A DNA stretch of 43,048 nucleotides from Candidatus Aminicenantota bacterium (GCA_022866045.1 JALHTW010000320.1:1-43048); one strand, 5' to 3'. Shown: positions 1,985 through 8,181, numbered from the stretch's first letter. Notes: generated from the letters alone by a model not told the origin. A program made the numbers and translations.

Positions 1985-2746
1985 TTATCTGTTGGCCTTG
2001 GCCGCACTGATGGGCGGCAGGTAAGGAAGGATATCGGCTTCGGCTGTCCGGATGTCCTCGACGGTGTCGATCTCAATCGCTTTGTACTTCCCCACATCCA
2101 CGCCATAGATATCGCCGCCGCGGTCGATGACTTCCTGGAAAGCGGCCTCGTAGAACTCGTTCACATTCTTTTCGATAACAATCTTGCGATCGATAACGGC
2201 GAAAAGCAATTCGAGTCCGGCCGGCCCGAATTTTTCGATGCCGATCGATTCTCCGATGGCTTGGGAAGACGGCACGTCCTTGCCGATCTCAAGGATGCGG
2301 CCGCGGCCATCAACGGTCACTTTGATCTCCTCCCCGCCCAGGATGATGTTTGTCTTGACAGCCAGGCAGTCGGCATGGCCGGAATCGAGAAGGGCTTCGA
2401 GGATCTTCCCATCAAAAATGATATCGCTGTCGAGAAGGAGCATCCCGCTGCGGAAGACCTCTTCCTTGGCCAGCCAGAGCGAGTAGATATTGTTCGTCGC
2501 AGCGTAGACGTCGTTGTGGATGAATGTCAGGCGAAGTTCGGGAAATTTTTCGGCGGCATAGCGCCGGACGAGAGGGGCGAGATATCCGGTCACAATCACA
2601 ATCTCTTCGATCCCGGCCGCCGAAAGATTGTCCAGCGTTCGTCCAAGGATGGCCTCCCCGCCGATGGGAAGAAGACATTTCGGCTTGTCGTTGGTGAGAG
2701 GTCGGAGGCGGGAAGATGTGCCCGCGGCGAGGATGACGCCTTTCAT
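1985..2746 (-). CDS. Nucleotidyltransferase (sugar-1-phosphate / phosphocholine-type cytidylyltransferase family)
   Basis: The 253-aa protein has the NTP_transferase Rossmann fold. N-terminal 'MKGVILAAGTSSRLRPLTNDKPKCLLPIGG' holds the G-x-S-S-R-L nucleotide loop and the PK motif, and 'LLLDSDIIF' is the metal-binding D-x-D region. The length, lacking a left-handed helix domain, matches the small LicC/phosphocholine or inositol-phosphate cytidylyltransferase-like members better than full GlmU/RmlA proteins. It is the last gene of a three-gene operon; its ATG overlaps the stop of the CDP-alcohol phosphatidyltransferase gene (ATGA). Context therefore suggests it makes a CDP-activated alcohol used by that neighbour. 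The substrate is unknown. Confidence 0.8.
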   Translation of the reverse strand: MKGVILAAGTSSRLRPLTNDKPKCLLPIGGEAILGRTLDNLSAAGIEEIVIVTGYLAPLVRRYAAEKFPELRLTFIHNDVYAATNNIYSLWLAKEEVFRSGMLLLDSDIIFDGKILEALLDSGHADCLAVKTNIILGGEEIKVTVDGRGRILEIGKDVPSSQAIGESIGIEKFGPAGLELLFAVIDRKIVIEKNVNEFYEAAFQEVIDRGGDIYGVDVGKYKAIEIDTVEDIRTAEADILPYLPPISAAKANR

Positions 2747-3633
2747 GAAGCCGCTTCCTCGGCAAGGTTATGGTCGATCCTGTTCTGGATAACGAACATG
2801 ACCGCCGTCCAGAGATTGCCGACGACGATCAGCCCCCAGAAATAGAAGTCGATCCGGCCGAGAAGCGTCGAGACGATCAGCAGCGTGCCGCCGGTCGTCG
2901 AGCCGAGGAACGTCCAGCCGCGCAGGGCAGCCTTGTTCTTCCGGGACAATTCTTCTTCGTTGAACTTTTTGACAGGCTTAGCGCTCGTCCACTGGAACGT
3001 CAGCTTTTTCTGGAGGTTCAAATACCAGAGATACATGCCGATAGCCGCCTTGCGCAAATTCTTTCCTTTATGAGCCTTGAGCGCATCCAGTTCTTCTTTA
3101 AAGCTCTCGTAGTCCTCGTCCTTGACATGCGAGGAAGAGCCCAGGACATAATCGATGAAGCGGTTCCGGTAGTAATCGAGCGTGACCGAGTGGAAAATAT
3201 TGCTCAGCCCAGCCGCCGCGACGAGCAACCACCACGCCTCCTCCGGTTGTCCCGATTCAGGGGCGAGGCCGAGGCCGATCCCGAGATAGATCGACAGGCT
3301 GACGACATAATCGATCATGCCGTCAAGGATCCGGCCCATCCGAGTCCCGTTCTTCTTGAGCCGGGCGAGCTGGCCGTCGGCGCAGTCGAAGACGATGCAC
3401 ACCCCGTAGAGAACGGCGCCTAAAATGACGGCCGAGCGGTGGCCGAACCCGAAGCTAATGCCTCCGAGGATGCCGATGAACATGGAGAACACGGTGAGCT
3501 GATTGGGCGTGATGTTCGTCCGGTAGACGGCCTTAACCAGGGCAAAAGCCAGCGGCCGGTAAAGATAGAGGTCGAGAATCTCCTCGACTTCGACGTGCTT
3601 CAGAGATCTTTTGTAGTCAGCGATGATGCTCAA
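2743..3633 (-). CDS. CDP-alcohol phosphatidyltransferase family membrane protein
   Basis: The complete CDP-alcohol phosphotransferase signature D-x2-D-G-x2-A-R-x8-G-x3-D-x3-D is present as 'DCADGQLARL' followed by 'GRILDGMID'. Several membrane segments surround it ('LTVFSMFIGILGGISF', 'SAVILGAVLYGVCIVF', 'TTGGTLLIVSTLLG'). The family transfers a phosphoalcohol between CDP and an acceptor alcohol in phospholipid synthesis. The 351-aa track ORF extends into the upstream aminotransferase in another frame. I choose TTG 3633 (296 aa): it forms a TTGA overlap with the upstream stop, has GGAG 11 nt before it, and leaves the conserved part intact. The substrate is unassigned. Confidence 0.85.
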   Translation of the reverse strand: MSIIADYKRSLKHVEVEEILDLYLYRPLAFALVKAVYRTNITPNQLTVFSMFIGILGGISFGFGHRSAVILGAVLYGVCIVFDCADGQLARLKKNGTRMGRILDGMIDYVVSLSIYLGIGLGLAPESGQPEEAWWLLVAAAGLSNIFHSVTLDYYRNRFIDYVLGSSSHVKDEDYESFKEELDALKAHKGKNLRKAAIGMYLWYLNLQKKLTFQWTSAKPVKKFNEEELSRKNKAALRGWTFLGSTTGGTLLIVSTLLGRIDFYFWGLIVVGNLWTAVMFVIQNRIDHNLAEEAAS

Positions 3634-4679
3634 AGAATTTTTTTCTCCGTGGCGAACGCCCGGATCTCTTCGATCAGCCTCCGGTTCTGCTCCTGCGTCC
3701 CGATCGTGATCCTGACGCAGTTCTCCAGATGGGCCTCGTTGAAGAATTTGATTGTCATTTTTTTCTGGGCGAGATGGTCCTTCAAGGCCGCTTTCCACTG
3801 GGCCGGAACGTCGGCCAGGATGAAATTGGCGTCCGACCGATAAGCTTTGAATCCCGGGATGCGCCCCAGCTCGCGGTAATACGTTTCCTTGTCCTGGACC
3901 ATCTTCCGTCCGATGTCGGTATAGTAATCGCGGGAATCGAGCGCCGCCAAGGCCAGCCGCTCGGAAAGACGGTTGTAGCCGAGATAGCGGGCGCTGTATT
4001 GAGAAAGGAGGGTTAAGTTCTTGCCCAGGAAGGCGAATCCGATCCGGATGCCGGCCAGGGCATAGTACTTGGAGAACGTGCGGATGATGATCAGGTTAGG
4101 AAATTCGCTAATGAGATCTTTGATGTCATTCGTCTGCCGGCTGGCGAATCCCCAGTAGGCTTCATCCAGGACGATAACCGCGTTTGTCGTTTTCCTCAGG
4201 ATGGTGCCGAGGTCCGTAAAATTGAGCGAGTTCCCGGTTGGATTGTTGGGCGAACTGATGAGGATGAGCCTGGGCTTGTGCTGCGCCGCCACCCGCAAAA
4301 GGCTCTCAACATCATAGGCAAAGGAATCCGCGCCGGGCACGATGGGATACTCGACCGAGATGCCTCCTTTTTCGCTGGCGATGGACTTGTAATACCACCA
4401 AGAATGCGTCGGGATCAGGATCGTCTCATCCTTGGCCAGGTAGCAGTGGACGGCCTGCTTGAGGAGATCCTCGGCTCCGTATCCAAGGAGAACACTATTT
4501 TCCGGAACCCCGAACTCTTTCGCCAGGCGTTCCGAGAGGACGCTTTTTACGCCCCGCACAAAATCCTTGGAATACCAGCTGAAGTACTCGAGGGTCGAAG
4601 TTCTCAGGACCTCGTAGCAGGCGGGCGCCGGGCCGTAATTGTTTTCATTGCGGTCCAGATAAGTGATTTCCTCCGGCAT
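3630..4679 (-). CDS. HisC/CobD-like fold-type I PLP enzyme (aminotransferase or decarboxylase)
   Basis: A 349-aa class I/II aminotransferase-fold protein. Visible motifs are 'SSPNNPTGNSL', 'VLDEAYWGFA' (PLP-binding Asp), 'RTFSKYYALAGIRIGFAF' (Schiff-base Lys) and the C-terminal Arg in 'NCVRITIG'. This resembles HisC (histidinol-phosphate aminotransferase) and CobD (threonine-phosphate decarboxylase) about equally. No other his or cob gene is near; instead it heads an operon with a CDP-alcohol phosphatidyltransferase (TTGA overlap) and a nucleotidyltransferase. A role in producing an amino-alcohol phosphate head group is therefore plausible but inferred. Start ATG 4679 has the RBS GGGAG and a TTGAAT-17-TATAAT promoter about 100 bp upstream. 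Confidence 0.8.
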   Translation of the reverse strand: MPEEITYLDRNENNYGPAPACYEVLRTSTLEYFSWYSKDFVRGVKSVLSERLAKEFGVPENSVLLGYGAEDLLKQAVHCYLAKDETILIPTHSWWYYKSIASEKGGISVEYPIVPGADSFAYDVESLLRVAAQHKPRLILISSPNNPTGNSLNFTDLGTILRKTTNAVIVLDEAYWGFASRQTNDIKDLISEFPNLIIIRTFSKYYALAGIRIGFAFLGKNLTLLSQYSARYLGYNRLSERLALAALDSRDYYTDIGRKMVQDKETYYRELGRIPGFKAYRSDANFILADVPAQWKAALKDHLAQKKMTIKFFNEAHLENCVRITIGTQEQNRRLIEEIRAFATEKKIL

Positions 4680-4776: not shown

Positions 4777-4805
4777 ATTATACACATTCGGAAAGGACAA
4801 TTCAA
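4777..4805 (-). promoter_or_regulatory. Sigma70-type promoter for the PLP enzyme/CDP-alcohol/nucleotidyltransferase operon
   Basis: Read on the - strand: -35 TTGAAT (4805-4800), 17-bp spacer, perfect -10 TATAAT (4782-4777). This predicts a leader of roughly 90 nt before ATG 4679. Confidence 0.7.
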
Positions 4806-5424: not shown

Positions 5425-5505
5425 AATTCGGTGACAGACACTGAGTTCACATGACATTTCAGGAAAAGATCATTGACTTCTGAATGCGGAGTCTGTCATC
5501 GAATT
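5425..5505. repeat. 81-bp inverted-repeat (REP-like) element
   Basis: The left arm AATTCGGTGACAGAC (5425-5439) and the right arm GTCTGTCATCGAATT (5491-5505) are inverted copies with one mismatch in 15 bases. The right arm covers the TGA stop of the DUF192 gene (5496-5498). The core TCGGTGACA resembles TCGGGGACA in the larger element at 8313-8500 and in the hairpin inside ribF, suggesting one repeat family. Confidence 0.65.
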
Positions 5506-5957
5506 ATTGGCAGAGTAAACTCCAGCCGATCGAAAAGCTTGAGGCCGAGACTGTCAGCGGCGCCGGCCGCAAGCTCAAGCACATAGAAGCCCGGCCGTTC
5601 CGGAGAATACGAAGGACAAGGGTCCTCCTTGCACGGGGGGACGTTCCGGGCAATGTGGACGATCCTTCGGTCCTTATTGATCCAGAGCATATCCAGGGAG
5701 ATCAGAGTATTCTTCATCCAGAAGGAATAGAGTCCTTCCTCCTCGAACACGAACAACATTCCCTGGTCGGGCAGGAGCTTCTCCCGGAACATCAGCCCCC
5801 GCTGCCGTTCCTCGTCCGTGACGGCGAGCTCGGCCGTAACCGATTTGCCGTCGGGAAGATAGATCTTGATGAATTTATCACGTCGTTCCGACTGGCAAAA
5901 AAGCAAGCCTCCGGCCAGGAGGAGAAGGAGAGTTAGGATCTGGATTTTTTTATTCAT
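5496..5957 (-). CDS. DUF192 family exported protein
   Basis: 153 aa, matching the DUF192 (PF02643) pattern: 'VTAELAVTDEERQRGLMFREKLLPDQGMLFVFEEEGLYSFWMKNTLISLDMLWIN', 'GFYVLELAAGAADSLGLKLFDRLEF'. The RGLM and FWMKNT motifs are diagnostic. It has an N-terminal signal sequence, 'KKIQILTLLLLLAGGLLFC'; the Cys does not sit in a canonical lipobox, so lipidation is uncertain. The biochemical function of DUF192 is unknown. The TGA stop falls inside the right arm of the inverted repeat at 5425-5505, so the annotated C-terminus may have been set by insertion of that repeat. Confidence 0.9.
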   Translation of the reverse strand: MNKKIQILTLLLLLAGGLLFCQSERRDKFIKIYLPDGKSVTAELAVTDEERQRGLMFREKLLPDQGMLFVFEEEGLYSFWMKNTLISLDMLWINKDRRIVHIARNVPPCKEDPCPSYSPERPGFYVLELAAGAADSLGLKLFDRLEFTLPIIR

Positions 5958-6005
5958 TGTAAATCCTCATGACTATTATAAACTTTCCCGCCGCGAAAAT
6001 AATCC

Positions 6006-6037
6006 CCCTCTCCCCCTTTAGAAAAGGGTGGAGAGGG
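6006..6037. repeat. C/G-rich REP-like palindrome, copy A
   Basis: CCCTCTCCCCCTTT and, after an AGAA loop, AAGGGTGGAGAGGG form an imperfect 14-bp stem. A related sequence with the same CCTTTAGAAA centre lies at 30098-30134. It sits between DUF192 and pcm. A second hairpin (GGCAGG...CCTGCC, about 6059-6080) follows with a T-run on the + strand only, the wrong side to terminate either flanking - strand gene. Confidence 0.55.
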
Positions 6038-6087
6038 CCGGATTTATCAGTCTTTTGGGCAGGCCCAGGTCCGCCTGCCGATTTTTA

Positions 6088-6720
6088 TTAATGCAGCGAA
6101 ACGAGGGGGACGAACCGGACGGGCAATAGCCGCGTCTCTTTGAACGTCTTCTCTTCCCGCCGGACCAGGACGAGCTCCTGATAATCCACACCGACAGGAA
6201 TGATCATCCGGCCGCCGACTTGGAGCTGTTCTTGAAGGACTTTGGGCACAGAGCCGGGAGCTGCCGTGACCATGATGGCGTCGTAAGGAGCGAAATCCTT
6301 CCAGCCTCTTGTTCCGTCGCCGATCTTGAACTGAATATTGACATACCCCAGGCTTTTCAAAACGTCCTGAGCGCGCTGAGATAAAGTGGAGACGACTTCG
6401 ATCGTGAAAACATCCTTGACGATCTCGGCCAAAACGGCGGTCTGGTATCCTGAGCCTGTCCCCACCTCAAGGACTCTTTCGGCTCCTCCGAGTTCCAAAA
6501 TTTCGGTCATATAAGCAACGATATAAGGCTGGGAAATGGTCTGCCCTGCCCCGATCGGAAGCGGCCCATCTGCGTAAGCGGAATCCCTCAACTCTTCGGG
6601 GACGAAAAAATGCCGCGGAACTTTGCCCATAGCATCAAGGACTTTCGCGTTCTTGATGCCGCGGCCGGCGATCTGGACTTCGACCATCTTCTCCCGGAGG
6701 GAGGAAAAATCGTTGCGCAT
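6088..6720 (-). CDS. pcm: Protein-L-isoaspartate O-methyltransferase
   Basis: A 210-aa SAM-dependent methyltransferase that repairs isoaspartyl residues in damaged proteins. Diagnostic motifs are 'MVEVQIAGRGIKNAKVLDAMGKVPRHFFVP', 'LPIGAGQTISQPYIVAYMTE' (the PCMT hallmark), the SAM-binding 'VLEVGTGSGYQTAVLA', 'DAIMVTAAPGSVPKVLQEQL' and 'GGRMIIPVG'. Length is normal. It begins 6 nt after the proS stop and has no recognisable Shine-Dalgarno, so translation probably depends on coupling to proS. The residues between the SAM site and the C-terminus are all consistent with an active enzyme. Confidence 0.95.
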   Translation of the reverse strand: MRNDFSSLREKMVEVQIAGRGIKNAKVLDAMGKVPRHFFVPEELRDSAYADGPLPIGAGQTISQPYIVAYMTEILELGGAERVLEVGTGSGYQTAVLAEIVKDVFTIEVVSTLSQRAQDVLKSLGYVNIQFKIGDGTRGWKDFAPYDAIMVTAAPGSVPKVLQEQLQVGGRMIIPVGVDYQELVLVRREEKTFKETRLLPVRFVPLVSLH

Positions 6721-6726
6721 TCTGTT

Positions 6727-8181
6727 TTAATAGGCTCGGGCGAAATAGACTAGAGCTTTCGCTTCTTTGCCGCAGCAGACGCAGGCGCCATGAACGGGTT
6801 TGTCTTTAATCTCGAGGGGAATGAGGCGGATCGTGGCCATGGTTTCGTCCTTGATTTTGTCTTCGCAAGCCTCGCCGCCGCACCAGAGGCTTTTCACGAA
6901 TCCTCGCTTCGTATCCAGGATGTCCTTGAACTCGTCATAGGTGCGGGCCTCGTGGGTATTTTGTGCTTGGAACGTGAAGGCCTCTTGATAGAGCGAGGCT
7001 TGAATGTCTTCAAGCAAGGCGGGCACTTTGGCCCCAAGAGCATCCAGCGGCAACGTTTCCCTTTTCATGGTGTCCCGCCGGACAAGAACGGCCTGGCCGG
7101 ATTTGACATCCCGCGGGCCGATCTCGATCCGGAGAGGGACACCCCGCATCTCATGTTCCGCGAATTTCCAGCCGGGCGTGAATTCTTCGCGGGTATCCAG
7201 GTAGACCCGGACCCCCGCCTTCTTCAGAATTTCTTCGGCAGCGAGGGCCGCCGGGATGACGGTTTCTTTCCAGTTGCCCAAAGAGATGGGGACGATGACG
7301 ACCTGGATCGGAGCAACATGGGGAGGCAATCGAAGCCCGGAATCGTCGCCGTGGGACATGATCAGAGCGCCGACGAGCCGCGTCGAAACGCCCCAGGACG
7401 TCTGCCAGACGTATTGGAGTTTCTGGCCGCGATCCTCGAAGCGGATATCGAACACCTTGGAGAAATGCTGGCCCAGGTTATGGGAAGTCCCCATTTGAAG
7501 CGCTTTTCCGTCCGACATCAGGCCCTCGATGGCGTAGGTTTCCTGGGCGCCGGCGAATTTCTCCCGCCAGGTCTTCCGTCCGGCGAGGACGGGGATGGCA
7601 AGCTCGGTCTCCACGAATTCCTTATACATAGCCAGGATCAAAAGCGTTTCTTTCTGCGCTTCCTCGTAGGTTTCGTGGCAGGTATGGCCTTCCTGCCATA
7701 AGAACTCTGTCGTCCTCAAAAACGGCCGCGTGACTTTCTCCCAACGGACGATGTTGGCCCACTGATTGATCAGGACGGGCAGGTCACGCCAGGATTTAAT
7801 CCACTTCGAATACATATGACCGATGATCGCTTCCGAGGTCGGGCGGACGGCCAGCCTTTCTTCCAGCTCCTCTTTCCCCCCGACGGTAACCCAGGCTACT
7901 TGAGGTGAAAATCCCTCGACGTGCTCTGCTTCTTTTTGGAGGAAGCTCTCTGGAATGAACAGGGGGAAATAGGCATTGACATGACCCGCGGCCTTGATTC
8001 TCTGATCCATCAGCCGCTGGATGTGCTCCCAGATCGCGTAGCCGTACGGCCGGATGACCATCATGCCCTTCATCGGGGCATAATCGGCGAGTTCCGTTTT
8101 TTGGATGATTTCGACATACCAACGTGAGAAATCTTCGGTTTTCGGCGTGATCTGTTTGACCAATCGTTCGTCTTTGCTCAC
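6727..8181 (-). CDS. proS: Prolyl-tRNA synthetase, archaeal/eukaryotic-like (ProS type 3)
   Basis: A class IIa synthetase charging tRNA-Pro. It matches the short ProS form that lacks the editing insertion: 'EDFSRWYVEIIQKTELADY', 'PYGYAIWEHIQ', 'VRPTSEAIIGHMYSKWI', 'RPFLRTTEFLWQEGHT', 'SHGDDSGLRLPPHVAPIQVVIVP', C-terminal zinc-type cysteines (CGGEAC, CVCCG) and the terminal ARAY tyrosine end. The track starts at TTG 8241 and an ATG sits at 8214, but a TTGACA-17-TAGAAT promoter covers 8213-8241, so transcripts should start near 8206. I therefore prefer GTG 8181 (484 aa, GGAG upstream), which fits the family length of about 475-485. ATG 8214 is the alternative. Confidence 0.95.
   Translation of the reverse strand: MSKDERLVKQITPKTEDFSRWYVEIIQKTELADYAPMKGMMVIRPYGYAIWEHIQRLMDQRIKAAGHVNAYFPLFIPESFLQKEAEHVEGFSPQVAWVTVGGKEELEERLAVRPTSEAIIGHMYSKWIKSWRDLPVLINQWANIVRWEKVTRPFLRTTEFLWQEGHTCHETYEEAQKETLLILAMYKEFVETELAIPVLAGRKTWREKFAGAQETYAIEGLMSDGKALQMGTSHNLGQHFSKVFDIRFEDRGQKLQYVWQTSWGVSTRLVGALIMSHGDDSGLRLPPHVAPIQVVIVPISLGNWKETVIPAALAAEEILKKAGVRVYLDTREEFTPGWKFAEHEMRGVPLRIEIGPRDVKSGQAVLVRRDTMKRETLPLDALGAKVPALLEDIQASLYQEAFTFQAQNTHEARTYDEFKDILDTKRGFVKSLWCGGEACEDKIKDETMATIRLIPLEIKDKPVHGACVCCGKEAKALVYFARAY

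Follow-up and report, generated by a model that had tools for sequence, protein, structure and literature searches.

What does a bacterium make with an operon that joins a gene resembling histidinol-phosphate aminotransferase to two genes for chemistry with cytidine diphosphate (CDP) alcohols? The question is raised by positions 1985–4679 of a 43,048-nucleotide stretch of DNA from Candidatus Aminicenantota bacterium (GCA_022866045.1 JALHTW010000320.1:1-43048; hereafter the window), part of a 3.28 Mb assembly that is 94% complete (G000; G and L numbers are our labels for genomes and loci). Three genes lie here on the minus strand: one for a HisC/CobD-superfamily pyridoxal phosphate (PLP) enzyme (3630–4679; 349 residues, ATG at 4679, TGA at 3632–3630), one for a CDP-alcohol phosphotransferase (CDP-AP; 2743–3633; 296 residues, TTG start at 3633, stop at 2745–2743) and one for a LicC/PntC-type nucleotidyltransferase (NT; 1985–2746; 253 residues, ATG at 2746, stop at 1985–1987). 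All three products exceed their Pfam cut-offs, with E-values of 6.4e-38 for PF00155 (PLP enzyme), 5.3e-13 for PF01066 (CDP-AP) and 8e-15 for PF12804 (NT). We propose, at somewhat better than even confidence, that they encode a de novo, Kennedy-like route to an amino-alcohol phospholipid, which would lead from phosphoserine via phosphoethanolamine and CDP-ethanolamine to lipid.

The three open reading frames and their 4-bp junctions are as described in the first-pass annotation, which had been made from the sequence alone: the PLP stop overlaps the CDP-AP start in TTGA (3630–3633, minus strand) and the CDP-AP stop overlaps the NT start in ATGA (2743–2746, minus strand). These overlaps suggest translational coupling, as had been supposed, but the further statement that the products are made in fixed ratio goes too far. 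A PLP-enzyme alignment, scanned against 85,000 species genomes, returned 80 loci, mostly from Ignavibacteria, with others from Spirochaetota, a deltaproteobacterium, Bacteroidota, Lachnospiraceae and further groups. At 46 of the 76 loci with a clear PLP homologue, picked by sequence alone, an NT or a CDP-AP gene lies on the same strand within 6 kb, and both do so at 32; since many of the linked loci also repeat the 4-bp overlap, the cluster is not a product of chance. The set is kept in Acidobacteriota, Ignavibacteriota, Bacteroidota and Spirochaetota in several orders (PLP-CDP-NT, PLP-NT-CDP and PLP-(other genes)-CDP-NT) and with fusions, NT to CDP-AP at one locus (L050) and NT to PLP in Lachnospiraceae.

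The window's family has as its named member an Acidobacteriota metagenome genome (L048), whose locus coincides with that of G320/G396, two records that are probably one genome. The entire set recurs in this family in G146 and G320, with PLP enzymes of 67–69% identity (NT 63% and CDP-AP 54% for G146 against the window), and the window-type PLP and NT genes are either both present (G000, G146, G320) or both absent (G296, G336). Eleven Ignavibacteria genomes and G421 have no NT gene adjacent to the PLP gene, and each encodes a strong NT homologue elsewhere. That the three genes belong to one pathway we regard as very probable.

Against the hisC model TIGR01141 the PLP enzyme scores 238 bits (cut-off 276.55), and against the cobD model TIGR01140 133 bits (cut-off 290.55). 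In a tree of 54 sequences, with PDB 1lc5 as CobD reference, 31 PLP enzymes from such clusters form a clade of their own with 100/99 support, apart from 17 HisC and three CobD or CobD-like sequences; two Armatimonadota sequences from the same scan fall outside the cluster clade. Tyr20 of HisC (E. coli numbering), which has a role in substrate binding, is Tyr in all 17 HisC sequences, and the position is absent in 68 of 79 cluster enzymes. The window enzyme has 10 residues before the NEN motif versus at least 29 in HisC, indicating that the N-terminal arm is missing. In 67 of the 79, Lys replaces the Arg of HisC position 322 (CobD 323), and the PLP lysine, which is Lys204 in the window enzyme by alignment with HisC and CobD, and the C-terminal Arg (HisC 335) are retained. 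The AlphaFold model (mean predicted local distance difference test, pLDDT, 92.5) superposes on HisC with a TM-score of 0.86 and on CobD with 0.82–0.85, the closest solved structures being HisC.

Genome content points the same way. In 25 genomes, nearly all PLP-bearing, that were searched with hisC and hisD models, hisD gave no match in the window genome or in nine other PLP-bearing genome records, and a separate HisC above the curated cut-off accompanied hisD in 12 of 12 genomes. The window genome, too, encodes a separate HisC above cut-off (G000:C354:8493-9560, L042); it lacks a hisD match and yet keeps the PLP gene. This HisC, standing in a genome without a hisD match, may serve another role; by eye, it adjoins a tryptophanase/tyrosine phenol-lyase-like gene. 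Because of its own clade, its score below the cut-off, the missing arm and the hisD pattern, we conclude that the PLP enzyme is not HisC. The phylogeny and the search for an independent hisC, both recommended in the first-pass annotation, thus speak for its view of the gene, and what it had named as fatal to that view, an enzyme inside HisC that is the sole copy in a genome with the remaining his genes, is not what was found. Membership of CobD was considered and is ruled out by the score of 133 bits, below 290.55, and by the separate clade. We propose that the enzyme is either a phospho-amino-acid (phosphoserine) decarboxylase or a keto-alcohol-phosphate aminotransferase.

LicC is a CTP:phosphocholine cytidylyltransferase and PntC a CTP:2-aminoethylphosphonate (AEP) cytidylyltransferase, and these two are the best PDB matches of NT (4.3e-17 and 5.2e-16; inositol-1-phosphate cytidylyltransferase, IPCT, 5e-6). 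Profile comparison agrees, with LicC at 8.5e-31 and PntC at 3e-29 over the full length (positions 2–240) and a partial match to IPCT at 4e-16. K23 of NT, the counterpart of the catalytic Lys25 of PntC, is invariant. In PntC, Glu196 and Glu104 contact the primary amine of AEP (PMC6697681). They align with E200, invariant among 18 homologues, and D106 of the window NT, and because these amine ligands match, a phosphate ester bearing a primary amine is favoured as substrate. NT is therefore proposed, on this kinship, to be a CTP:amino-alcohol-phosphate cytidylyltransferase.

The product of the middle gene is a multi-helical membrane protein that reaches 50.1 bits with PF01066 (cut-off 22). Its catalytic motif DxxDGxxARx8GxxxDxxxD is complete and invariant in 21 homologues, profile matches include AF2299 (2.5e-23), PIPS and DIPPS and, more weakly, human CEPT1 (5.7e-8) and cholinephosphotransferase, and its AlphaFold model (pLDDT 89.4) is closest to AF2299. 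We propose that it transfers a phospho-alcohol, phospho-X, from CDP-X to a lipid.

PLP and NT also occur as a pair without the membrane enzyme. In Prevotella (L184) LicD follows the two genes, which share a 4-bp overlap; it lies near the pair in two spirochaetes (L105, L108) and adjoins NT-PLP fusions in Lachnospiraceae, and in all of these LicD stands in place of the membrane enzyme. As LicD enzymes use CDP-choline-type donors, PLP plus NT is predicted to be a donor-making module able to supply lipid and glycan enzymes alike. The Prevotella record (NC_022111.1), a replicon of 1.77 Mb, is filed as a plasmid but may be a second chromosome. The Lachnospiraceae fusions (L113:5005-6999, L116:4981-6993 and L118:4987-7008, each adjoining LicD) consist of an N-terminal stretch of ~65 residues, winged-helix by eye and without Pfam match, then NT, then PLP, and their PLP part belongs to the sister group of the window PLP clade.

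Another kind of replacement is seen within the window's family. At the same ProRS-PCMT-LpxB locus, the sister genomes G336 and G296 carry an orthologous CDP-AP (60% and 54% identity). Neither genome has PLP or NT genes of the window type; both encode an NT-PLP fusion of 603–604 residues, which in G336 lies directly upstream of the prolyl-tRNA synthetase (ProRS) gene in the same direction. The PLP domain of the fusion is CobD-like (cobD 158–160 bits versus hisC 121–126), and its best PDB match, at 2e-42, is 6oux, a 'Threonine phosphate decarboxylase-like enzyme', which may be SMUL_1544. That one membrane enzyme is found with two different PLP plus NT modules suggests that both deliver the same CDP product, decarboxylation being the likelier way to it in view of the CobD-like domain. 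Fusions of a LicC-type NT and a CobD-like PLP domain form a family of ~603-residue proteins with an FrbH-like layout in Acidobacteriota and a spirochaete (L215:4988-6802, L216:4715-6526, L105:7102-8907; 47–59% mutual identity).

In the route that we propose, the PLP enzyme would make an amino-alcohol phosphate, most likely phosphoethanolamine by decarboxylation of O-phospho-L-serine. NT would use CTP to convert it into CDP-ethanolamine or a close analogue, as its kinship to LicC and PntC suggests, and CDP-AP would move the phospho-alcohol to the hydroxyl of a lipid such as diacylglycerol. Cj1436 is a known PLP enzyme that decarboxylates phosphoserine (PMC12409886), and production of phosphoethanolamine has been proposed for SMUL_1544 (PMC4585668). 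The two activities might also act in the other order, cytidylylation before decarboxylation, as reported for FrbH, a cytidylyltransferase/PLP decarboxylase with the same pair of activities (PMC8007912). The chain from amino-alcohol phosphate through a CDP derivative to the membrane enzyme had been outlined in the first-pass annotation, and it fits the LicC/PntC kinship of NT, the LicD alternatives, the NT-PLP fusions and the replacement module of the sister genomes. Comparison supports the scheme well; its substrate, like every reaction, acceptor and biological role described here, decarboxylation and the lipid acceptor among them, is what we infer from sequence. For ethanolamine made by decarboxylation as the head group, we see an even chance or marginally better.

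Phosphatidylserine decarboxylase (Psd) bears on this choice. No match to Psd was found in six genome records of the window's family, the window genome included (two of the six being probably one genome), and since the family lacks Psd, the operon could be its route to phosphatidylethanolamine (PE). A choline/ethanolamine kinase is not encoded within the operon, the part of the genome inspected for one.

Several observations weigh against the proposed route. Psd is present in 22 of 22 tested Ignavibacteria/Bacteroidota genomes that carry the PLP gene, so the product there need not be PE. The PLP enzyme scores nearer to HisC, an aminotransferase, than to CobD and has DEAY, as HisC does, at the position of DEAF in the CobD sequences compared, so transamination is possible. 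At D106 NT has Asp, like LicC, in place of the Glu of PntC, so that a bulkier group could fit. Finally, the closest solved structures to CDP-AP are inositol-type enzymes, and the lipid acceptor cannot be read from its sequence. A universal tie of the cluster to missing Psd was also considered and is ruled out by the Ignavibacteria that have both Psd and the PLP gene.

The main rival follows from some of these points. The PLP enzyme would act as an aminotransferase that makes serinol phosphate from dihydroxyacetone phosphate (DHAP), or a similar keto-alcohol phosphate, and glutamate, to be carried via CDP-serinol into a serinol phospholipid. It has a precedent in Cj1437, a DHAP aminotransferase that makes serinol phosphate in Campylobacter jejuni (PMC12409886). 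The PLP enzyme is moreover closer to HisC, which aminates an acetol phosphate, than to CobD, and Psd alongside the cluster in Ignavibacteria argues against ethanolamine as the head group. We nevertheless consider it unlikely: the PLP domain of the replacement module in the sister genomes is CobD-like, of decarboxylase type, and no serinol phospholipid was found in the open literature searched. Alternatively, the pathway may run as proposed to the CDP-amino-alcohol and CDP-AP may then make a soluble phosphodiester or modify a glycan carrier, as could be argued from the PLP plus NT pairs with LicD in other bacteria and from IPCT-DIPPS, a soluble-product enzyme among the nearest CDP-AP structures. 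CDP-AP, however, is a membrane protein with several helices, CEPT1 and PIPS are among its relatives as well, and no second soluble acceptor pathway is encoded beside it, which makes such an outcome distinctly improbable.

The remaining readings fare worse. In phosphonolipid synthesis the PLP enzyme would make AEP, NT would act as PntC and the membrane enzyme would attach the product. NT is indeed close to PntC, which occurs fused to a PLP enzyme, but that fusion partner is of class V and the window enzyme is not, and phosphoenolpyruvate (PEP) mutase (PepM) was not found in a whole-genome search of the window genome (94% complete) and exceeded the cut-off in merely two of 21 genomes searched. 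This bears out the doubt already raised over the lack of a pepM gene nearby, and we hold a phosphonolipid to be very improbable. To the same slight degree we credit an inositol-phosphate-type pair of NT and CDP-AP with the PLP gene as an unrelated passenger. Both proteins show weak profile similarity to the IPCT-DIPPS fusion, and the window genome has a second NT plus CDP-AP pair (G000:C293) that lacks PLP, yet the NT profile is nearer to LicC/PntC than to IPCT by ~14 orders of magnitude in E-value, and PLP and NT remain paired even if CDP-AP is missing or LicD takes its place. The least credible reading, that of a plain HisC for histidine synthesis placed here by accident, can point to the significant hisC score of 238 bits and to HisC as the nearest solved structures. 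It is already contradicted by the separate clade, by the loss of the Tyr20 arm in 68 of 79 enzymes, by the absence of hisD from the window genome and nine other PLP-bearing records together with a separate HisC in each of the 12 genomes with hisD, and by the conserved linkage to NT and CDP-AP. Apart from these, a broader form of the proposed route, in which a de novo CDP-amino-alcohol route in at least four phyla yields a previously undescribed head group (such as serinol from DHAP) and coexists with Psd in Ignavibacteria, strikes us as somewhat unlikely.

On one side the operon is flanked by genes for ProRS, PCMT and a DUF192 protein; the gene at its other end, lpxB, lies on the opposite strand. 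A possible promoter with sigma-70-like hexamers (TTGAAT-17-TATAAT, 4777–4805, minus strand) lies ~100 bases upstream of the PLP start; it has 10 of 12 consensus matches and is a weak candidate, as four such sites were seen versus 1.6 expected in the scan. A longer CDP-AP reading frame with a GTG start inside the PLP gene reaches 3798. The DUF192 (PF02643) gene is a recurrent neighbour, adjoining the PLP gene upstream in Acidobacteriota (window 5496–5957) and downstream in Ignavibacteria (L061:7055-7621; L054:7041-7628), and its G336 copy shares four bases with the CDP-AP gene. The second pair in the window genome, a LicC-type NT followed by CDP-AP with no PLP gene (G000:C293, L190:2163-2897 and 2695-3543), likely represents a second CDP-alcohol route. 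Distant PLP homologues overlap a similar upstream gene, ATP-grasp-like by eye and without Pfam match, in Eubacteriaceae (L112:4845-5921 with 5902-6999), where an APH-family kinase gene follows, and in Rhodobacteraceae (L123:4609-5676 with 5660-6766). In two candidate-phylum genomes the PLP homologue comes directly after a HAD-type phosphatase gene (L115:535-1059, L117:5459-5989; Pfam checked for L117), as if an amino-alcohol phosphate were dephosphorylated there.

How does the proposed route compare with known systems? As in the eukaryotic Kennedy pathway, an amino-alcohol phosphate would be activated with CTP before a CDP-alcohol phosphotransferase acts (CEPT1 being a distant profile match). 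The operon, however, has a PLP enzyme in place of choline/ethanolamine kinase, so that the head group would be made de novo, its NT is of the LicC family, and transfer to diacylglycerol is predicted from the families. LicC/LicD phosphocholine decoration is similar in that NT is nearest to LicC and that PLP plus NT relatives adjoin LicD, but the operon lacks choline kinase and the window has a membrane CDP-alcohol phosphotransferase. PntC-AEPT of Treponema denticola (6pd1), from phosphonyl tailoring, likewise combines a PLP enzyme with a LicC-family cytidylyltransferase, and Glu200 of NT corresponds to its amine ligand Glu196, whereas the window PLP enzyme is class I/II and HisC/CobD-like, not class V, and PEP mutase is absent. 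FrbH of FR-900098 biosynthesis unites both chemistries in one protein with the layout of the sister-genome fusion; its substrate is a phosphonate amino acid and its pathway makes an antibiotic, while the window enzymes are separate proteins with no phosphonate pathway. Cj1436, SMUL_1544 (proposed) and Cj1437, compared by described activity alone, are PLP enzymes for ethanolamine phosphate or serinol phosphate (PMC12409886, PMC4585668), but feed capsule amides or the cobamide loop rather than a CDP-lipid route. Neither a bacterial phosphoserine-decarboxylase/CDP-ethanolamine lipid route nor a serinol phospholipid was found in the open literature, a search that did not cover subscription papers and preprints.

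In textbook bacterial PE synthesis, CDP-diacylglycerol is joined to serine and the resulting lipid is decarboxylated. If correct, the proposed route would add a second logic for bacterial amino-phospholipids, in which the head group is built and activated first, without uptake of choline or ethanolamine. It would also give an assignment to a large group of genes now scoring as 'histidinol-phosphate aminotransferase' and lead one to expect amino lipids, so far unreported, in Ignavibacteria, and it would explain how an Acidobacteriota family without Psd could make amino-phospholipids.

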